Source of the DNA: Adineta ricciae
Taxonomy: Eukaryota > Rotifera > Eurotatoria > Adinetida > Adinetidae
Reading direction: 5' to 3'
Assembly: GCA_905250025.1 (NCBI GenBank)
Contig: CAJNOJ010000027.1
Span: 496,001-560,000 of the forward strand
Length of the DNA: 64,000 nucleotides
The translations under genes were made by a program, and so were the position numbers. Shown piece after piece: positions 5,392 through 64,000 of the stretch. Numbering within the stretch: position 1 is the first letter of the stretch; each line of letters starts with the position of its first letter. The notes below the pieces were generated by a model. The model ran no database searches. It saw only the letters and a program-made list of their open reading frames with translations, and had not been told where the DNA came from.

Positions 5392-7283
5392 TCAAAAATT
5401 CGTCATATAAATCGGACGACGGGGACATACAGGCATTGCCACTATGTTACCAAGAACGGCTAGTTGGCCTCCTTCTGGATCTTGGTTAATTTGTGGATAA
5501 TTCAATTGTTCCTCAACTGTAAACAGTGTATTGAGTGCACCATTACTTGTCGATAGCTGTGCAGTCAAAGTAGATGAACTACGTTTTAGTTCATTTCTTT
5601 CCAAATCGGTAATTGGCTCTGTTTGATTCATATTGCTGTAGTCATCCATAACGATATCACCTTCTCGAATGTGTCGCAATTCATCGGCTACTTGTGGAGC
5701 TGACAGCTTTTTTATATTGAAATTTTTGCGATAGAGTAAATACAAGATAGGCGAGGTCAGAAATGTTAAGATCGTTGCCATTAATACGAATAACGCGAAG
5801 ATAATTTCCGAGATAACTTTCAATTGAACACCGATATTCAGAACAACCAATTGAACGATACCACGTGTGTTCATCAGAACGCCAATTGATAAACAATAAG
5901 ACCAAGGCTTCTTCGTACACAGTTTCGTCATCAATGCCACCGGCACAATCTTAGCTGTCGATGCTAGAATGAGTAGAACAACTAGTGTCCACCAAACTTT
6001 GCCGGAAGTAAGTAAATTCAAATGCGTATTAAGGCCACTATTTGCAAAATAGAGTCTAAAAATCAACACATATTTCGAATCACTTGAGATATTTCATCAA
6101 ACCAAGATAAAACGCTTACGGTAAGAAAAATTCTACGATGATAAGTTCGATTCGTACACCTAAAAAGTCTGTTAACTCTCCTTCGCGTGGAATGCATAAA
6201 CCGCTGATAAAAGCACCGAAAAAAGCATGAATACCTAGACAAACGGCGTGGAAAAGTATTTTCATAAACTTTTACATTGAAATCGATTTCAACTCTCACC
6301 CATAACTTCGGTTGTAAATGCCGAAACAATAAGTAATAGAAAACATCCAACAACTAAGTAAACATTTGTGTCATCGTGCCGTCGCCAATAATATTTATGA
6401 ATTCGTTTGAGAATTGGTCGAATAATGAGAACCATGATCGCGATAAAAGCTAATGTTAATAACAGTGTATAGAGACCTTGCAGAGCTGAACCTCCTGATG
6501 AAAATGCACTAGCAATTGCTAAGATTACCCAGACACAAATATCTTCTACAGCAGCTAATGAAATCGTTTGAATACCGATCGGTTTGTTTAATAGGTCCAT
6601 CGCATTGAGCAACGTAGCAAGTACAGGAAAAGCCGAAAAACCAAAACCAGATGCTATAAGAATAATATTTCATATCGTTAAGTTCATTCTGTCGTTGGCC
6701 TTACCAATAAATAATATAAATGCAGCTTTATTTGTATCTAGACCTGTGTTCATGTCATAAAGCCAGAGAGCTACGGCGCAGCCGATGCCAACTATTTGAG
6801 TGCATATTTGGTTTTCCCTATGGAATGATACATACTACTCACCTGGAATGATAATACTTGCGCAAGCAATTGGTATTGTAGTTTTCCAACTGGTTTTGAT
6901 TTGTTCGAGATCCAATTCAAGTCCAAGGAAAAACATGAAAAAGATTAAACCTAAATTTGCGATGAGCTGAAAGACGGGGATGCTTGAGGGCGGCCAAATG
7001 GCTTCGGTCCAAGCGTTAATTTGGCCTTTAGAATGAAGAAAAAGAACAAAATACTATTTCCTATCTATATATATATATATTTCTCCAAACCGAGAAGGGA
7101 TGGACCAAAAATGATTCCTGCAATAATTTGGCCAATAACTTGAGGTTGTCGAATGTATGAAAGAATTTTCGCCAGAATCTTGCATACAACTAACGTAATG
7201 AACACTTGCATTAAGAAAGTTGCCAATGGAGAATCACTCGGATTCTCGAAAAGCTTTACCATTATGAACAATCGACCTACCAT
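5392..7283 (-). CDS. CPA2-family cation/proton antiporter, Kha1/CHX-like
   Basis: Multi-pass membrane exchanger, probably K+ or Na+ for H+. Translation begins at an ATG at 7283; the conserved part starts NPSDSPLATFLMQ, then IRQPQVIGQIIAGIIFGPSL. Further blocks are LIFFMFFLGLELD, GFSAFPVLATLLNAMDLL, AAVEDICVWVILAIASA, EVMG followed by IHAFFGAFISGLCIPR, LYFANSGLNT and MNTRGIVQLVVLNIG. These are the motifs of fungal Kha1 and plant CHX exchangers, not of animal NHE or NHA. At least five short introns are seen, for example 7026 to about 7095, with phase-consistent GT-AG joins. The last ~100 residues form a hydrophilic tail with no recognised domain; yeast Kha1 is longer here. Horizontal origin is inferred from motif resemblance only. 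Confidence 0.85.
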
Positions 7284-12057: not shown

Positions 12058-13344
12058 ATGCCGAGCGCGACTTGTGTATCATGTCAAGGCCAACGACCAG
12101 CGGCTCTTGTTCGGCCGAAAACAAGTGAGCCATACTGTAAAGTATGTTTTTTCGAAGCATTCGAGCGTGAAATACATGAAACAATCGTTAACGAACAACT
12201 ATTTAAACCCGGTGAAACAATTGCTGTAGCCGCTAGTGGTGGAAAAGGTATTGAGGAAGAAAATTTCAAACGTGATTATAACGATACCATTTAGATTCAA
12301 CTGTTCTTGCTCATGTATTAAAGCTATTGAATGAAAGACATTCATACGGTCTGAAACTTGTTCTACTGTCTATTGACGAGGGTATTACAGGATATCGAGA
12401 TGATTCACTTGAAACAGTTAAACGTAATCAGCAACAATATGATTTACCTTTAATTATTCTTACATATAAAGAATTATACGGTTGGAGTATGGTAATGAAC
12501 TGTAAAATTTCAATAAGCAATGTGTACACGTGTGTATGTTTTATAGGATGAAATTGTCAAAGCAGTGGGGCGTAAGAATAATTGTAAGTGATGAGAATTT
12601 CAATGAAAGTTTGCAAACAAACTGGCATTATTGTTCTTCCACTAAGGCACTTTCTGTGGTGTTTTTCGTCGTCAAGCGCTTGATCGTGGTGCAATGAAAT
12701 TATCTGTGAACAAAATTGCGACTGGTCATAATGCTGATGACATTGCTGAAACGATTTTAATGAACATACTTCGCGGTGATATAGCACGATTAAAGCGTTG
12801 TACGTCGATTATAACCGGTGACGAATCCGATGAAAATGAAGGTTCAGTAATACCTCGATGTAAACCATTGAAATACGCTTATGAAAAAGAAATTGTTCTC
12901 TATGCTTTCTACAAACGCTTGGATTATTTCTCAACCGAATGTCTCTATTCTCCGAATGCGTATCGTGGAAATATCAGAACGTATATTAAAGATCTGGAAC
13001 GATTGAGACCATCATCAATCATTGATATTATCCATAGTGGTGAACAAGTGTTAGTTAAACAAACCGCCAAAATGCCTGTTCAACGTGTTTGTGAACGGTG
13101 TTCGTATTGTTCATCGATGCCAATCTGTAAAGCATGCTTATTAATCGAAGGTTTGAATAAGGGTGTACCAAAATTAGGTATTGGAAAAACCGAACGTTAT
13201 CGAAAAGAAATGCAAAAGAAGGATGAATGTTGCAGTAAGTAATTTCATGCGATCTACAACAACTGACCGTTGCTTTTGTCATTAGATGATCAATCTCTGT
13301 GTCATTGCATGCAAGAGAAACTAACAGTGAATGGAGATAAGTGA
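12058..13344 (+). CDS. CTU1: CTU1/NCS6, cytoplasmic tRNA 2-thiolation protein 1
   Basis: PP-loop ATPase that, with CTU2, thiolates U34 of Lys, Glu and Gln tRNAs in the cytosol. The N-terminal zinc site is CVSCQ followed by YCKVCF. The PP-loop AASGGKDST spans the first intron (about 12248-12293). Then come [68 protein letters not shown], and the C-terminal zinc cluster [18 protein letters not shown]. Length is about 355 residues, normal for the family. Short introns have consistent phases; the last exon ends NGDK with the stop at 13342-13344. It is the first gene of a tight plus-strand series with ARID4, whose start is 115 bp downstream. Confidence 0.95.
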
Positions 13345-13458
13345 TATATAAAAATGAAAAATGAAAGTTGAACAAGAACACGTGTGATTTTCTTTTTCGA
13401 ATAATATATTTTCATTTGTTTGTTTTTCAGATAGTTTTGAAGTATTTTAGTTTTCACG

Positions 13459-16400
13459 ATGTACGGTGTTAGAGACAGACGATCTTCATCGACACTGTCA
13501 CAATCTATCTATACCGATGAATCGAATACGAATACATCTACATTAAGTGAATCTGCATGCCTTCCAATTGGTTGCTCGGTGAGTGCCAAGTATCGAGGAG
13601 CTTTTTGTTCAGGTAAAATTCTTTCGTAGAGCGATTCGCTTGTCATCAACGCATTCTTTTTATAGCACAAGTTAAAACCGTAGTTAAGCAGGTTCAACTT
13701 AAAGTAACACTCTTGACTACTGGTGAAACGATCACTATCTCTGATGAGCAAATTGTTCAACCCGCTTTGCTGCGTATGGGACGTATAGTAACCGTACGTT
13801 TACCCATATCCATTCGCCATGAAGCCTCGCCACATTTATCTCGAAGTAGTCTAGCAGCAATTATCAATGCTAGCAATAATTACGAAGAAAAACAAGCAAC
13901 TATCAAACGAATATATGATAATAGTACTTATACCGTAGTATTCAATGATGGTGATGAGAAATCTTTAAGACGTTCATCACTCTGTCTCCAAGGTATACGT
14001 TTATATCAAAATCAAATCGATCAACAAAAACTTCTCGAAGACATTCCAACACCAGCTATATTCACAAATAGTAATGATATGACATCGATTATTGCTGTCC
14101 AACGCAGTGGAACAAACAATCAACAAGTTTTTCCTGCTTTAAAGCTCAAGCGTAAATCGCTAGCAGATTACATGTGGATCAAAAGTTTTCTCGATGGTCG
14201 AGAATACATTGTTCACAAACGTGATGATGTTTATCCATACAAGAATAATTCCGAAATTCAATCTCTCTGTCGTTCAACGTCGAAACAGGCGACGAAAGCA
14301 TGTGAAAAGTTTATTAAGTACAATCAAATACCGGTTATTTGGCAGAAGAAGAAATCTGTGATAAATGATTCGACTGAAGAGAAACATTTGAGTGATAATG
14401 AATCGAGCACAAGCGATACCGACGTTGACGATAGTGATGAAGAAACAACTGAAGAAAAAGATTCATTTGTTGCACAATTATTTGCCTTCATGGAGGACCG
14501 AGGTAAGTAACGATCGAAGTAAGATGAACTTGAATGTGATGGAATGTCTCTTTCTAGGAACACCAATGAATAATATTCCGAAAGTTCACGGCTATAATCT
14601 CGATCTTCATCGCTTATTTAAAATTGTTCGACGCTATGGAGGATACAATAAAGTTCGTCGTTTTCTACTCAGTTTCCTCCAGATTCTATGAATTATCTTT
14701 CATAGGTTGTGAAAAATGATCAATGGGGGAAAGTATATATCAAAATGGGTTTACCTGATGAGTCATCTGTAAAAAATAGTCGTCTGGTTGAAAATGCTTA
14801 TAAAAAGTTTGTAGAACCGCTTGAAAACGCAAAACTACATCTGTCATACGATTTGCATCTAGATATTTATATGCCTATGAAGAATTGTCAAAAAAATTAG
14901 GTACAATGACGACATCAAATACATACTTTGGTGGACGTACCACATTTAGTGATTCGAGACGAAGTTTAATTCGTGTGCGACAACTATCAGATGAGAAGAC
15001 GAAATCAAAATACAATTCAACCTCGAACAAGCGTCAGGTAAGACTCGAGTCAAACGTCACATATATATTTTCTCATATCCATACTTCTAGTCTTCAAAGA
15101 GACAATCCACTGATTCGAAACCGACATTAACATCAGGCAAGCCTCGACGAAAAACTTTACCAATCGGCAAAACAAGGTCATCCAATGTATTATCATCGAG
15201 CGCATCTGATTCCGAGACATCGGACGATGAAACAACAAATTCGTCGACAGTATCAAGTAATAATCGCATCAAGAAACAAGCGAACAGCTCGCCAGTGAAG
15301 AAGTTCACGCCCTCGTCTGAGGAGAAGAAACAACCGAAAAACCAGACACAAAAAGTAACGACGGGGAAAAAACCGAAATCAACGAACGATGCGGAAAATG
15401 ATATGACACCAGTTATCAAAATTGCGAAGATTTCCGAAGAACTTTTGTATGTTGAACATTCATATGTTTTCTCGATAGATGTTTCAATTTATAGGAAAGA
15501 ATCGACACTAGCAACCCACAAAAACCATCGAGAACGTATATCGAAGCAAACAGAAACACATGATTTGACACCTTTACCAGTCACACCTGTGTCGCCATCG
15601 CCGCCACCTTCAGCGGCCGATGGATCACCATCAATGCCAACGAGTAATCACCAAATTAAAACTTTATCTGATGATGTGCCAGGTAAACGAAATCAGTTTT
15701 TCGCACCGTTTCACTCGTTCTGTATTCACATATTCAAGTTCTTGAAGTTTCCACAACATTACCAACAGTAATTCCATCATGGCTAACGAAACGAGCCTAT
15801 TCGGACGACAATTTCGAATTCAATTACAAAACTGAAGAACAACTATCTCCATCGAAACGTTCTCGATCATCTCTAGATAGCACTGATACGAGCAGGTAAC
15901 GTGATTCTCATTCAAACAACGCGTCTATTTCAATTCATTACGTTCTTGTAGCAGTAGCAAGCATTTCACGTATGCTGATCTATTTGTCAATGACAAACTA
16001 GTGATAAAACGTGATACAAATCACAGGAAACAGTACCGTGTACAGTGTTTAGAAAAGAACGATCATACAAAAGAATTACGCGTTCAATATATCGACGTGG
16101 ATTCGAAGTAAGCTATCTACTGATGATATAGAATGTGTTTATAACACCATTTGATTGATTCTAGACATGACGAATGGATTGCATTTGAGCAGGTTGTAAA
16201 ACGTCGAAGCCATTCGATTGAAGGAGAAATCAGTGTCGATCCAACTGTGGCATTCATATCAATTGAAGAAGAGAAGGAACGAAGAGAAGGGACGAATAAA
16301 ACTATGACAAGTAATCCAGATGATGGAAGTAAGATCATGTGGTTTGATTGTGTGTCAACAGAAAATATTTGAGTAATCTTGTTTAGTATGGAAAAGTTTA

Positions 16401-17642
16401 GAAATCATATCGTTAAATGAAAATAATTCGGTACCGAATTTCATAACGAATGATAACAAGTTTCCGTAAGTTGAATGGAGAGCAAACTAGTACGTTGAAA
16501 CTCATCCTCGTCTTTGGTCTATTTCATTAGCTCAAGTGAACGAACTACATCTACCACGACAAGTGAGAATCCAATCTTCAATAGCACTGACGATGCGTTG
16601 GAGCCCACTGATGATAATTCACGTCAACAAGCAATTCCTGATACGCAATTATCAAATCTAAGGATTGTTTCAGCCGAGAGTGTTCAAATCGACGACAATA
16701 CATCAACACCTGACATGTAAATTGCCCTCTGTGTCCGTTAGAATGCTTTGTATCCGATTGTTGATTTTAGCTTTGTGCATCCAGTTTACGTCAAAGAAGA
16801 GATCATCGATAACTCTTCCAGTAATCAACCAGCAACTTCGTCTCCAAGAGAATCGTATGTTCCTAATAATATTCTGCCATATTCACCTATGGACAATCGT
16901 CGTGCTTCGACACGCCAACCGAAACGACGTACATGTCGAGAATCATCGATTTCTGCAAAGAAACGAACGAGATTGGAGACAGATTTAAATAGCAATTCTT
17001 CGATCGATAATCTTCCGAACAATAACGAACAAATTTTAATGATAAATGATCAACAACAACAAACGATTGAACGTAGGTAGACATTGATAAAATCCTAATT
17101 GGTCATTTGGATTTGTTTCCTAGTGAAACGATACCGACTGGGTGGAAAACGAGGGGGAAAACGAACGATTAATCCAACAGGTGTGTTCTTAGTTTGTTTT
17201 GATTCTTCCACATCACTAAATGAATTGTTTCAGATAATGAAAATGAAGATTACCATATGAATTCTTCAGTTAATTTAACATTGCGAGAACAACTAGAAGA
17301 CATGTTCAAGAGCCGACCAAGTCGTTACAATTTTCTTGATCTCGGTAAGATTTTTCTTGACATGTTTCCATTTTCACTCTCGACTCACTTTAGACAATGA
17401 CATCACCGGCGATGAACGTTTAGCACACATAAAAGATCGTATGCGACAATGCCAAAAAGTCTTTCTCAATCTAAAAAGTGCCTTGACAAGAGTAGAAAAA
17501 CAGAAAAGGATTTTTATTCGACGCCAAAAATCAACGAGTATGTCAAATAACACTTCGACTTTCGACTTCCACATCATCTCTTTGTCTTCTAGCTGCTCAA
17601 TCGACTGCCAACGAGCTTCTATTATCATCTTCTTGTAAATGA
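13459..17642 (+). CDS. ARID4: ARID4-like (RBP1/BRCAA1) chromatin protein of the SIN3-HDAC complex
   Basis: Nuclear scaffold that links SIN3/HDAC to DNA and histones. Domains in order are: an N-terminal Tudor-like region opening GCSVSAKYRGAFCSAQVK, with YTVVFNDGDEKSLRRSSLC; a second Tudor/PWWP-like segment with IKSFLDGREYIVHKRDDV; and an acidic tract. The ARID domain follows (FVAQLFAFMEDRGTPMNN, then HRLFKIVRRYGGYNKV). Then come a long Ser/Thr-rich linker and a chromo-barrel (DLFVNDKLVIKRD, VQYIDVDSKHDEWIAFEQVV). A C-terminal coiled coil (GDERLAHIKDRMRQCQKVFL) ends the protein. This is the full ARID4A/B order. At least a dozen short introns occur; the stop is TGA at 17640-17642. Linker exons (15.0-17.1 kb) are the least certain part. 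Confidence 0.9.
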
Positions 17643-17820
17643 AAACTTCTTCGATCGACCATATCTTGTTTTTTTCTTTGTTATTCGTTACGTTCAATGC
17701 GTTACAGTGCGTTCTTTCTTTCAAGTGTTTTGTTTCTGAAAATGAATAGAACTATTTTCATTTGTTTTACGAATAGAAACCGATTCTTAATAATTGTGAT
17801 TTTTCTAGTTTGTAATTTTC

Positions 17821-18616
17821 ATGGAGATTTATAAATTGACGAATCTACCCGATTCACTCTACTATGTACCGAATTTTATAACCAGCGAAGAAGAAGAACA
17901 ACTACTTTCATGTGTGAATAATGTTCCTCGCACACGTTGGGTCCAATTGCGAAATCGAAGATTACAAAATTGGGGTGGACAGCCACACGCGAAAGGAATG
18001 ATTCAAACAGAATCATTACCGAAATGGTTAGAGCCATTTACGGAGCGAATACTTCAACTTGGAAAAGACACGATCTTCACTGATTGTCTCTTCCAATTTA
18101 ATCATTGTTTAGTGAATGAATACGAAGCAGGTCAGGGAATTATGGCACACACGGACGGACCTGTTTACTTTCCGATTGTCACAACAATTTCATTACAATC
18201 ACATACGATTATTGAATTTTATCGACCGATCGATAGTCTAAATACCGAGGTGAGAACTAATCTAATTTGTTGAAATGCATTTCAAAACGATTCTGGTTGG
18301 TTTCGAGAGATAATGAATGTTTCCAATGTCATTTATTTAGGACACATCTCTATCTACCCGGTGTATTGCACGAGTCCTTCTTGAACCACGTAGTTTATTC
18401 ATCGTCAAAGACGAGATGTATTCGTATTATCTGCATGGAATTGAAGAACGTTATGAAGATCCAATTAGCCGTACACTGATCAGTAATTTCGATCGATGTT
18501 TGGAAGATGTTCAAAGTGGAGACGAAAAGACATTGACGCGTAAAACACGAATATCTTTAACTATCCGACGTGTTGAAAAGACATCGAAAATACAATTCGG
18601 AGCGTTGCGTAAATGA
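17821..18616 (+). CDS. ALKBH6: ALKBH6, Fe(II)/2-oxoglutarate dioxygenase
   Basis: AlkB-family oxygenase thought to act on nucleic acids. Conserved blocks are YVPNFITSEEEEQLL, RRLQNWGGQPHAKGM and LVNEYEAGQGIMAHTDGP (the iron-binding HxD). They continue with VTTISLQSHTIIEFY, LLEPRSLFIVKDEMY, YLHGI (the second iron His) and the 2-OG-binding RISLTIRRV. Two exons are split by an intron at about 18249-18340. Length is about 234 residues, normal for ALKBH6. The stop codon is only 33 bp before the CRLS1 start on the same strand, leaving no room for a normal 3' end and promoter. This suggests co-transcription. Confidence 0.95.
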
Positions 18617-18649
18617 GAAAATGCTTTTTTACCATTATTTTTCTTTCAG
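18617..18649 (+). promoter_or_regulatory. Candidate spliced-leader acceptor between ALKBH6 and CRLS1
   Basis: The 33 bp between the ALKBH6 stop and the CRLS1 start end in a pyrimidine tract plus CAG (ATTTTTCTTTCAG) directly abutting ATG. It is a textbook 3' splice site with no upstream donor other than inside the preceding gene. Bdelloid rotifers are known to trans-splice a short leader onto mRNAs, so this is best read as a trans-splice site of a two-gene operon. Confidence 0.6.
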
Positions 18650-19525
18650 ATGTTGCTACTCGGACGATTGTTAGCTACTCGCTCATCGTCGACTTTGATT
18701 CTACAATGTCGATCGCGTATTTGTTCTTCGTTGACATGTAACAAACGATTATTATTTCCTTTACAATCATCATCGACAAACTCTCTCATACGGCATTCGT
18801 CAAATTCAATTGATCAGCCGAAAACTGATCGGGTATGGACTATACCGAATATTTTGACCTTCGCGCGAATTGGCACATCACCTATTCTGGGCTATTTGAT
18901 TGTTAGCCATCATTATCCAGCAGCATTAACGCTCTTTCTCATCTCGGGTTTTACAGATTTACTTGACGGTTGGATCGCACGTCGTTATCCATCGCAAGCA
19001 TCGGCATTAGGCTCATTCCTTGATCCATTTGCAGACAAAATGCTTGTTGGAATTGTTGTTATATCACTTGCCTATGTTCATCTTATCCCATTATGGTTAC
19101 TCGCTCTAATTCTCAGCCGTGACATTGCAATCATGTGTGTTGCTGGTTATTTACGAGTCAAATCTGTGCCACCGCCAAGAACATTGAAGAAAATTTTGAA
19201 TATGAAAAACGCGACAGTACAACTCTATCCAACACTCATCAGTAAAGTATGTTGAATTCTTCGGTCGATCGATACAGGAAATATCACGTGCACGCCTTTT
19301 CTTTCCTCAAAGGTAAATACTGGCGTTCAAATTGGACTGTTAACATTGTGTATGGCAGCACCAATTTTTGATTATCATAATACTGGCTGGATGTCAGTTA
19401 TCTATGCACTCTCTGCTCTTTCAACTGGAGTCTCTTGGCTTTCCTACACAGGCAAAAGTGGTCGAGCGACATTTAAAATGCTTTCGCAACAATCCAAAAC
19501 ACCACCTCCTTCATCTTCTTTGTAA
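18650..19525 (+). CDS. CRLS1: CRLS1, mitochondrial cardiolipin synthase
   Basis: Joins CDP-diacylglycerol and phosphatidylglycerol to make cardiolipin in the inner mitochondrial membrane. The Arg/Ser-rich N-terminus lacking acidic residues looks like a mitochondrial presequence. The core opens WTIPNILTFARIG. It has the CDP-alcohol phosphotransferase motif from DLLDGWIARR to LGSFLDPFADK, with all catalytic Asp residues present. Several hydrophobic helices follow, including LIPLWLLALILSRDIAIM. One intron (about 19246-19314) precedes the last exon, which reads NTGVQIGLLTLCM and ends PPPSSSL at the TAA at 19523-19525. Length is about 270 residues, normal. It sits immediately behind ALKBH6. Confidence 0.95.
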
Positions 19526-19620
19526 CTATATTCCTCTTCTTCGTTTTTTATACAAACAAAAAACAATCAAGCACATTGAATAAAACAGAGAAAAAAAGAC
19601 GCAAAAGTTATTATTTTTTT

Positions 19621-22510
<2,890 letters not shown>

Positions 22511-23257
22511 GTTAGTGCTAATGTTTGATAGTGAAGTATTGTAACTGTGAATAGTAAATCATGATCATTTTCTCTAGTCTCTCTTATATAGGAGCTTTTT
22601 TTTCGTGTCAATTTGCATTTTCGCCCCATTATGTTTGTTCAGAAAATGTTCTTGAAATGCATAGATATTCAGGTAGAATAAGAAAAAGAATAGGGGCGTG
22701 TATTTGTCTTTCGAAAGAGTATGTATCTTATCATTCATACATTCTCATTTTCAATGATGAAAAAAAAGAGAACTGCTACTGTTCCCTTTCAGACACACAT
22801 ACTTCAATCTTTGATAGGCAAACATCTTTATGTCGTCTAATTAAAAATGAGATACACATATATACATATGCACATTCACTCCTATAATGATAATAATAGA
22901 TGTGTGCTAGCAATGATCACAATGGCAAATAGAGAAAGAGAAATGAAAGTGAGATGAGACACATTCTTCAGTGTTAAAAGCAAATAAATCGTGAAGTTTG
23001 ACATAAATCACAATAGTAAACTTTTTCCTGAGCGCGGTGTGGAGAGCTATTGATTATGAATAGAATACTTTCTTTAGTTCTAGGCTTGATAAGATTAGTA
23101 TTGTGTATCGGAAAGAAAGTCATTAGTCGTGCTTCACTTGATTCCGAGTATGTTCAATCATGTTCTATTTGAATATTATACTTCACGCAATATATTTCAT
23201 TCATTTGGAATATAAATGAACAATTTCACGAGAAAAGATAAGCATAAAGAATCAACA
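22511..23257. other. Intergenic stretch, nothing recognised
   Basis: Upstream of RBPJ and downstream of LTO1, both minus strand. The 108-codon plus frame at 22561-22887 is low in complexity of pattern and matches no family I know. Confidence 0.6.
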
Positions 23258-30881: not shown

Positions 30882-31456
30882 AAGAATATGTTTATTGTTT
30901 ATGTGCTATATAAAAACCAAATCAATTAGAAAAAAAACTCGCCACAATCTCAAGCCCGGTGACAGTGTTTTCTGTTTTTTTTTCTTCTTCTTCTTTCTCT
31001 CTCGCTCAATGTTAAACTTTGTGTAAATATATTGAACGAGTGATTCTTGCTAGGTATTCCTTACTTGTTCTTCTTATTTCTGTATAAAAAAAAAACAAAC
31101 TAATGGCGTGATATCTATACTTATATTTCACTGTTTTCTTTTTCTGTTTGTTCTTTTGATGTTGATTATTTAGTAGAATGTTCGCGTGTATGTGTGTACC
31201 AAAGCAACAACTGTAAACAGATCTATGAATAAAACGATAAAGCAACGCGCAAAAATCTATGCATGTCTTATCAAGTCGTTAAAGTTTTACATCGAACACG
31301 CTATGATGTTAATCTAAATGCGTGTTTATTGACAGAAGAATTAAAGTGATAAAATATCTTCTTATCTACCCCGAAATAAATCTTTCATTGACAACTTTTT
31401 CGGAGCTGCGAAAAAACATTCTTTTGTTACGAAAAAAAAGGGAGAGGCAGACAGCA
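30882..31456. other. Intergenic stretch, nothing recognised
   Basis: AT-rich spacer with poly-T runs (30975-31005). The ATG at 31322 is in frame with the dipeptidase gene but would add a long non-conserved leader. The ATG at 31457 fits better. Confidence 0.6.
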
Positions 31457-61011: not shown

Positions 61012-62660
61012 ATGGCTTCGAATTCAACAGATCCATCCACGAAAGGTTAATTAGATTAAAAAAAAGGTCAAGTTCGATTGGAAAAATGTATGAAAATATT
61101 CTTTAGATGATGATGAATATCAAGCTGGTTATGACGAAGAAGATGACGAGCAAACTATCGAAGAAGAAGAACAATTCGGAGATGATGACGAACAAAACGA
61201 ACTGGATGATTTAGAAGCGGTAATACTCACAATCACTTATTTGAATCACATCGTTCTTGTTTGAATCGCTTAGGATGCAAATATGCCTCTGGATGAACTA
61301 CTCAAGATGTACGGACAGAACGCACCAGTCATTCACAACATCCCACATAGTCATCATGATGTAGGACTATTTTCAAAGAAAAACCTTGTTTTGAACTCTG
61401 TCACCTTTTAGACAAATACCTCTTCAGATGATGATGAAGATGAAAACAATCGTCCACCTCAACTGCATCATTTGCTTCATGTTAATGGTAGATTGTTGCC
61501 GGATAACGATGATGATGATGATGATACAGATGACTCATTCGAACCAGAAATTATTAAAGTTTGTGCTGTTGTCGCTTTTTGAAACTATTCAATTGAACTT
61601 TTTTCGGATTTTTTTTTCAGACAATTCGTGTTGGTGAAGAATATCAAGCAGAAGTAGAACCACAAGCGGAGTTTGATTCAACAAATGAGAATTCAGATGA
61701 CAGAGAACGTACGATCAAATACGCATAAAATCCCAACTAAAATTGTTTTTGCTATTTCAGTACCTGTTGATGAAATCCTTTGGTCACCATCTTCAGTTGA
61801 TGACGATATGAATGAGAATATTGATGAATATCTGAAAACAATTCGCAGTGAATGTAAGTCAATTTTTGATCTTTTCATTCGACATCGAATCTATTCTATT
61901 CAAAGATCCACTTTCGGATGATGAAATATCACTTCAAACGTTATTCAACTGTCAAATGAATACAGAAACCGCTCTTACTAAGTTTCGTCAATTACCTGTG
62001 AAAACTATCTGTAAGAATGTTTTCCTCTCTCCGCACTTGCCCTTATTTCGTCAATCTACATTAGATTCTTATCCGGAATGGTCACTCGATGAAATTCAGT
62101 CGCTCGAAGAAGGTTTACGCGTATATGGAAAGAATTTCTTCAAGATATCTGAAATCAAAGTAGCACTGACAGTTATTTCGTCACTTGTGATAGAAATTTT
62201 TCGTTTTTTCTAGTGTCCCAACCGAAGTGTTCGTGAAGTTATTCACTTTTATTACCAATGGAAGAAAAGTGAACGATATCAATTGTTTATGGAAGAACAA
62301 CAGCGTCTCACTGCGATCACATCTGTCACGTATGTTGTTTTCGTACGCGTTACTCTCGAAAGAACGAAATTCAATCATTTCTTTAGCGATATGATCGAAA
62401 AGCTAATTGAAGAACAAGAACAACAATTATGTACAGCTGTAGGTGTTATCAATTCAACCAATTCTTCGTCAGTACTTACACATGATCTTAAACGCAATTC
62501 TCCAAATTCTTCAATCTCAATTGTAACTATATGTCAACAAGAAACGAGCACAACAACAACAAGCAAACGAGCATTTGATCAAGTGGACAATGATACGGAT
62601 CCACCAACGAAGAAATCTTCACTTAATTCTAATAATTCTCCAACAGCAACCATCGTATAG
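61012..62660 (+). CDS. MIER1: MIER1-like ELM2/SANT corepressor
   Basis: Recruits HDAC1/2 through its ELM2-SANT module. The first exon encodes MASNSTDPSTK. Acidic exons follow (EEDDEQTIEEEEQFGDDDE). The MIER-specific motif MPLDELLKMYGQNAP corresponds to MPIHELLSLYGY of the human protein. The ELM2 domain reads TIRVGEEYQAEV, then LPVDEILWSPSSV and DDEISLQTLFNCQMNTETA. The SANT domain is PEWSLDEIQSLEEGLRVYGK, NFFKISEIKCPNRSVREVIH and FYYQWKKSERYQLF. A Ser/Thr-rich tail with KRAFDQVDNDTDPPTKK ends at TAG 62658-62660. About eight short introns are present. Domain order and MIER motif separate it from MTA and RCOR proteins. Confidence 0.93.
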
Positions 62661-62847
62661 TCACATCATGAGAAAACCACAGATGGACAAAATCGAACAC
62701 GAGCGCGTCACATTCGTTTGTTTATTTTCTTTCTTGTTTATGAGTATTTAAATACATATTAGTGTTTGTTGTTGTTATTGTATTATTCTTTCTTGATCAT
62801 TACCTATACGTAAACAAAATCTAAAATATTTAGATCATTCTATACCG

Positions 62848-64000
62848 ATGGCTCTGTGGTCTCCAGTACCACAATTGGGTAGTCGACGCGGCATCCAAAT
62901 ATCTAATTTTAATACGAATCAAAAGTTTACAGTGAGTAAAGTTTATTCAATGTATCGTTATGCGAGACAAATTTCATGTGTCTTTGTAGGAATATACTAT
63001 TGACATATGTTTGGATGATATTCGTTGGCAAGTGTCGAAACGTTATAGTGAATTCGCTGATTTTCATGAAGAATTGATCAAAGAAGTTCCGCAAATCGAC
63101 GCGAAAAGTTTGCCACCGAAGAAATTACTTAACAAAACTTCACCTGATTTTATTCAACGACGACGACAAGCGTTAGACCATTATCTAAAATATTTATTTC
63201 AATTTTTTACCAATAATACAATGCAATTACCTGAATGTTTTGTCCAATTTCTGGATTTTCATGTTTATGTAAGTCGAATCGTCAATCCTTCTTACATCAT
63301 TTTTCCAATGTCAATTTTCCAGGAAGTTCATGGTATTGTTCGAAAGCTAGCGAAAGAATTATTTTTAAACGGTGATAAAATCTTAGCAGCGCCGGGCAAG
63401 AAAGTATTCTCTATTAGTCCACTACAAATACATGCAATCACTCGACGTATTAAACTACCCGAACCACCGTGTGGTAACTAAAACCTTTCCACTTTTTCTC
63501 TATTAGTCAAAGCAAAAACATATCTTTATAATTAGAGAGCAACGATCCTGCTAAAGATCTAAGTCATGTTCTCGATTTCCTTTGTCATGTCAAGTATGTA
63601 CAAGTATGTTGCCACAACTTAGGCAATGAAGGTGCGAGAGTAGGACAAGCTTATCTAATGATTTGACGTGTTTTAGATCATTGGCAGTCCTGATAACTTT
63701 GGTACAAGTACAGTGAAAACACAATTTCTTCCATTCGATGTTTCATTCTGTAAATCAGTCGAAGAACTTGAAGTATGATCAAATTCTTCGCAAATCAATT
63801 GATTCGAATTCGATTTTTCATTTATAGCTCGATTGCGTTCAAACCAGTCAAATAACTGGATTAGACAATCTTAAGAAAACTGTACGTCGTCTTTCCATTC
63901 ATCGTAGTCTAACATCCATTCGAGTACGTATACCATTTTTGCATACCAGAATAATATGTTGATTCTTTCGTTTACGCAGGAAATTGCACTTAGCTCACTG
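62848..64000 (+). CDS. NISCH: Nischarin-like protein (PX domain plus LRR), 3' end outside window
   Basis: Endosomal scaffold that binds integrin alpha5, Rac/PAK and Rab proteins. The first exon starts at 62848 with ALWSPVPQLGSRRGIQI. The PX domain contains YTIDICLDDIRWQVSKRYSE, FADFHEELIKEVPQIDAKSL, PPKKLLNKTSPDFIQRRRQA and LPECFVQFLDFHVYEVHGIV. The nischarin-specific continuation is RKLAKELFLNGDKIL, PLQIHAITRRIKLPEPPCE, DPAKDLSHVLDFLCHVKYVQ and GTSTVKTQFLPFDVSFCKSV. The LRR part begins near 63880 and runs off the window. An acceptor-like ATATTTAG lies 16 bp before the ATG, 188 bp after the MIER1 stop. Confidence 0.93.

Follow-up and report, generated by a model that had tools for sequence, protein, structure and literature searches.

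How is a gene expressed when its start codon lies only 33 nt behind the stop codon of its neighbour? This is the question raised by ALKBH6 and CRLS1 (cardiolipin synthase-like) of the bdelloid rotifer Adineta ricciae, which lie on the forward strand of a 64,000-nt stretch of DNA (hereafter the window, to whose numbering all coordinates refer unless a contig is named). The initial annotation had read the two genes as a trans-spliced two-gene operon that unites unexpected partners. Our analysis gives most support to trans-splicing from a shared transcript and suggests that two genes are probably too few: ALKBH6 and CRLS1 quite probably close a multigene operon resolved by a spliced leader (SL), which probably comprises a CTU1-like gene, an ARID-domain gene, ALKBH6 and CRLS1.

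Identity of the two genes

ALKBH6 (17821–18616; exons 17821–18249 and 18341–18616; 234 aa; TGA at 18614–18616) matches human ALKBH6 (PDB 7vjs) over residues 2–224 of 234 (E = 1.5e-49), and its HxD and later H, which we take to be the iron-ligand motif of ALKBH6, align with 7vjs. The CRLS1 protein (18650–19525; exons 18650–19246 and 19313–19525; 269 aa) contains a CDP-OH_P_transf (CDP-alcohol phosphatidyltransferase) domain (Pfam, E = 6.1e-28), and inspection of the translation by eye revealed DxxDG...AR...GxxxDxxxD, presumably the motif of this domain. Its sole solved relative at E ≤ 0.001 is a PgsA; the name CRLS1 is given by analogy with animal cardiolipin synthases, and cardiolipin synthase was chosen over PG-phosphate synthase because the animal PGP synthase presumably belongs to another family. 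The N terminus is rich in Arg, Ser and Leu, contains no acidic residues and presumably resembles a mitochondrial presequence. A genome search placed ALKBH6, CRLS1 and CTU1 in two copies each (contigs C27 and C1), with a weak additional CRLS1 match on C195 (E = 9e-4). In the accessible text of the literature, ALKBH6 and CRLS1 occur together in one paper only, a study of migraine.

Anatomy of the 33-nt spacer

Genes were predicted with a home-made hidden Markov model (HMM) trained on the window and C2:200001–400000 (264 kb), which yielded 96 genes with a median intron of 55 nt and whose predicted starts are uncertain. The spacer between ALKBH6 and CRLS1 (18617–18649) measures 33 nt from the TGA to the ATG at 18650, as originally described, which makes it the shortest among the 62 gaps predicted between same-strand genes. 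The polypyrimidine tract and CAG noted at its pyrimidine-rich 3′ end are likewise present (last letters TTTCTTTCAG), at zero distance from the ATG. This acceptor scores 7.80, the 96th percentile among 576 predicted cis acceptors, and only 4 of 11,512 ATGs in the 264 kb (CRLS1 included) are abutted by one as strong. The spacer contains no GT dinucleotide and neither AATAAA nor ATTAAA; on the forward strand, neither hexamer occurs between the one at 16295 and the AATAAA at 19579–19584, which begins 54 nt beyond the CRLS1 stop and is the sole one up to 20000. The contact between acceptor and ATG was considered as proof of trans-splicing and dropped, given that the genome-wide share of ATG after TTTTCAG (1176 ATG to 3665 ATH) does not significantly exceed the share among predicted cis exon starts for all acceptors (20 to 77; p = 0.47).

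The nearest good-looking donor to the CRLS1 acceptor, at 18609, implies an intron of 41 nt, which is unusually short here (of 576 predicted introns, only 2 measure ≤44 nt). A 66-nt cis intron (18609–18674) would instead join ALKBH6 in frame to CRLS1 as one fused gene, a chimaera without the first CRLS1 residues. Such a length is inside the common intron range here, and the gene model, which separates the two genes at a start penalty of 0, picks this join at −2; however, ALKBH6 ends approximately where its alignment with the human protein ends, the join would remove part of the presumed mitochondrial presequence, and the donor, the acceptor and the whole intron rank at the 9th, 2nd and 0.5th percentiles, respectively, of predicted cis introns. 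Fusion by cis-splicing is disfavoured, and we regard it as very improbable.

CRLS1 could also be transcribed independently, from a promoter within ALKBH6, in which case the two genes would simply be close neighbours; a short 5′ exon might or might not be cis-spliced to 18650. For a nematode, the accessible part of PMC7986045 speaks of ‘hybrid’ operons that contain an internal promoter, and ALKBH6 offers candidate donors, of which that at 18540 is best. As the spacer contains no GT, any CRLS1 5′ exon must sit in ALKBH6 sequence, which speaks against this reading; the best internal donor reaches a combined score of 3.27 (approximately the 10th percentile of predicted cis introns), and the spacers further upstream share the acceptor layout. 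We consider an independent promoter unlikely. A third possibility concerns a minor product beside trans-splicing—the donor at 18250, behind ALKBH6 exon 1, could be joined to 18650, skipping exon 2 and fusing ALKBH6(1–143) to CRLS1. The frame would be kept without an internal stop, the acceptor at 18650 outscores the normal one at 18341 (7.80 versus 5.11), and flatworm SL acceptors, as reported in the accessible text of PMC12582326, often double as cis acceptors, mostly in monocistronic transcripts. Set against this are the loss of ALKBH6 exon 2 and an intron of 400 nt, far over the 55-nt median, and we would hardly expect such a product. With regard to the idea of TGA readthrough, the 11 codons from the ALKBH6 TGA to the CRLS1 ATG are open in both genomic copies of the locus, which is unremarkable at such short length.

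Spliced-leader genes in the genome

Trans-splicing, the preferred reading, had been put forward on the understanding that bdelloids use spliced leaders, for which a 2005 paper is said to be the source cited. The accessible parts of two papers give a 23-nt SL sequence for three rotifers (PMC3795323) and report the SL on over half of bdelloid transcripts, with none found for monogonont rotifers in that 2007 expressed sequence tag study (PMC1925144). We scanned the 130-Mb assembly for the published 23-nt sequence with two mismatches allowed, using the reversed sequence as a control, and obtained 44 matches against 0. Of the 44 copies, 41 depart from the published exon at base 1 alone (22 of 23 bases identical) and the other 3 at one base more (21 of 23). 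Ten overlapping loci were read, and all 12 distinct copies in them are directly followed by GTAAA, a splice donor, so that, at the level of the DNA, the machinery required for trans-splicing is present. The SL RNA folds stably in one type (z = −6.4) and weakly in the other (z = −1.8). No canonical U-rich Sm-binding site was recognised by eye in the copies read, and the Rfam matches of three SL loci included no SL family. All 44 copies start with T, whereas position 1 of the published consensus is G, suggesting that the initial G of the published sequence could be cap-derived or species-dependent. The copies are mostly arranged head-to-head (17 pairs <600 nt apart, 12 of them at exactly 153 nt), with such genes on contigs C6, C8, C43, C77, C79, C99 and C146.

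A probable longer unit upstream

Two further same-strand genes precede ALKBH6. The first, at 12058–13344 (5 exons in the gene model), matches ATP_bind_3 (E = 5.5e-16) and zn-ribbon_14 (E = 6.9e-13); we take it to be CTU1-like, of a tRNA thiolation enzyme family, and it is a possible first gene of the unit, with a weak acceptor by its start (score 3.05). Spacer 1 (13345–13458, 114 nt) carries the acceptor TTTTTCAG at 13431, 28 nt 5′ of the next ATG. The second gene, at 13459–17642 (17 exons in the gene model) and presumably ARID4-like, has an ARID domain (E = 1.3e-23; first 420 of 1,103 aa scanned). It is separated from ALKBH6 by spacer 2 (17643–17820, 178 nt), in which the acceptor TTTTTCTAG at 17809 lies 12 nt 5′ of the ALKBH6 ATG. 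Both spacers are without AATAAA or ATTAAA. On the other side, CRLS1 is followed by an RBPJ/Su(H)-like gene in convergent orientation. The transcription unit is thus probably longer than two genes, consisting of the CTU1-like gene, the ARID-domain gene, ALKBH6 and CRLS1.

The DNA offers features expected of an SL-resolved operon: genes on one strand with spacers of 114, 178 and 33 nt, SL genes with a donor, and an acceptor at distance 0. Of the original proposal, the trans-spliced shared transcript has the best support, given the SL genes, a junction without GT or either hexamer, the excessively short 41-nt intron from 18609 and a layout that is kept in a second copy of the locus. The restriction to two genes probably gives way to the neighbours at 178 and 114 nt, and an acceptor in contact with the ATG is by itself no diagnostic sign.

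Divergence between two copies of the locus

A homologous region on contig C1 carries the same genes at 92–94% identity over window positions 6385–36165. Its spacer 3 is also 33 nt long and has two substitutions, with the acceptor, stop and ATG intact. Between the copies, 1 of 114, 6 of 178 and 2 of 33 sites differ in spacers 1, 2 and 3, respectively, or 9 of 325 when pooled (2.8%), compared with 323 of 3,482 in predicted introns (9.3%; p = 1.2e-5) and 596 of 7,618 in other intergenic DNA (p = 2.5e-4), the sites behind these p values not being independent. In predicted exons 652 of 15,825 sites differ, and the pooled spacers look to diverge at an exon-like rather than an intron-like rate. This low divergence is due to the two upstream spacers; the 33-nt spacer shows no unusual conservation by itself (2 of 33). 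Likeness to the degree of spacer 1 is also found elsewhere—among 394 other non-coding windows of this length (114 nt), 46 differ at no more than one site. Two longer intergenic stretches, at 30882–31456 and 22155–23257, are also conserved between the copies (3.5% and 3.7% divergence).

Tight gene pairs elsewhere

In the 264 kb, 62 of 94 adjacent predicted gene pairs lie on the same strand (p = 0.0013). Distances within 300 nt occur in 15 of the 62 same-strand pairs, 1 of the 16 divergent pairs and 8 of the 16 convergent pairs, and from the last count closeness is partly a matter of a compact genome. We counted an acceptor as present if one lay no more than 40 nt from the downstream ATG and reached at least the 25th percentile of cis acceptors in score, a threshold that was set after the pair listing had been seen. 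On this measure, an acceptor accompanies the second ATG in 8 of 14 tight same-strand pairs, versus 559 of 3,440 random intergenic points (p = 6e-4). The 14 exclude a 182-nt pair whose downstream model scored <20 and retain a 74-nt C2 pair, although by eye this looks like one split LRP-like gene. Among Pfam-validated tight pairs away from the ALKBH6–CRLS1 locus, an acceptor is found in 5 of 7 (p = 0.0018 versus intergenic points; p = 0.034 versus the 12 of 44 wider-gap same-strand starts that have one). Acceptors are also frequent at divergent starts (12 of 30), as expected if single genes are trans-spliced too; an acceptor alone is thus no proof of an operon, as what it marks is either trans-splicing or a cis-spliced 5′ exon and not co-transcription as such. 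AATAAA occurs in 5 of the 15 tight spacers (7.06 ± 1.83 expected), and as this depletion is not significant we do not treat a missing AATAAA as typical of tight pairs in general and note it solely as a property of the ALKBH6–CRLS1 locus. One further tight same-strand pair in the window (61012–63993, gap of 187 nt) has TTTAG 14 nt before its second ATG, with a sub-threshold score of 2.31.

Operons elsewhere often combine unrelated genes, and an oxygenase that is paired with a cardiolipin synthase therefore need not be its partner in function. Nor is the pairing special in this genome, because unrelated genes are closely paired in other places. All 10 of the 15 tight pairs in which both members were Pfam-scanned (three in the window and seven in C2, with longer C2 proteins scanned as 260-aa ends) join different families, for example TMEM17 + CFAP97, IFT80 + WDR93 and UDPGP + OPA3. 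The five pairs outside this count have gaps of 242, 233, 187, 74 and 182 nt; Pfam gave nothing above the cut-off for the upstream protein of the 242-nt pair and no family for the downstream protein of the 233-nt pair. TMEM17 + CFAP97 and IFT80 + WDR93, whose four members presumably all have cilium roles, lie on C2 from 205608 and 221077 onward (L023, L025). Also on C2, from 231905 onward (L026), a gene for a mechanosensitive channel, a family common in bacteria, follows an NF-X1-like gene at a distance of 240 nt and may be a possibly acquired gene that entered a tight unit.

Proposed processing of the unit

In the operon reading, the whole unit would be read as one RNA, ending at the AATAAA 3′ of CRLS1. 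The spliceosome would join the bdelloid SL (about 23 nt) from the SL RNA to the acceptor at 18649/18650, bringing the SL 3′ end (...ACTTACCAAGAG) against ATGTTGCTACTCGGACGATTG at the CRLS1 start, and the freed CRLS1 mRNA would have the SL itself as its 5′ leader, with the ATG directly after. The upstream genes, as far as the unit is predicted to reach, would be released likewise, each at its own acceptor, and the 3′ end of ALKBH6 would perhaps be made by coupling to trans-splicing. There is, in our estimate, about an even chance that bdelloids use multigene operons genome-wide, resolved by a single SL (CTU1–ARID–ALKBH6–CRLS1, TMEM17–CFAP97 and IFT80–WDR93), with some spacers so short that the upstream 3′ end must couple to trans-splicing.

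Comparison with known operons

The SL-resolved operon is a known kind of unit, and on our best reading what would be new is its occurrence in rotifers. In the accessible parts of the sources, rotifer operons are entered as ‘ND’ in a 2008 table (PMC2481426) and given as not reported in 2021 (PMC7986045), leaving open in both whether the bdelloid SL serves operons, and a 2025 paper loosely lists rotifers with lineages that have trans-splicing and operonic transcription (PMC12460157). No report of rotifer operons is among the literature matches listed, which comprise titles and abstract starts, most subscription papers lying outside their coverage. Candidate units with exact junctions make the question testable with RNA reads and, if the reading is true, add one more animal lineage that combines spliced leaders with operons.

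Bdelloid SL trans-splicing shares its SL exon with this genome. Candidate operons in parasitic flatworms (same-strand genes within 300 bp; PMC12582326) and in the chaetognath P. gotoi (genes <250 bp apart; PMC12460157) were, in the accessible text, defined by distance and then checked for SL evidence; the pairs described here satisfy the distance rule, whereas their assignment, unlike that of flatworm or P. gotoi operons, comes from sequence alone. Almost no spacer is likewise present in the operons of Ciona intestinalis and the SL1-type operons of C. elegans, and in Ciona, according to the accessible parts of PMC7986045 and PMC12582326, the SL acceptor of the downstream gene directly adjoins the upstream poly(A) site; the median Ciona spacing is 1 bp between annotated gene ends, compared with 33, 178 and 114 nt between coding sequences here. 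The most similar known system is that of the tunicate Oikopleura dioica, which is backed by SL reads. There, in the accessible text of PMC7986045, a single SL serves both monocistronic and operon genes, and predicted operons have a median spacing of 57 bp by default and of 33 and 31 bp after distance cut-offs, near the 33 nt between ALKBH6 and CRLS1.
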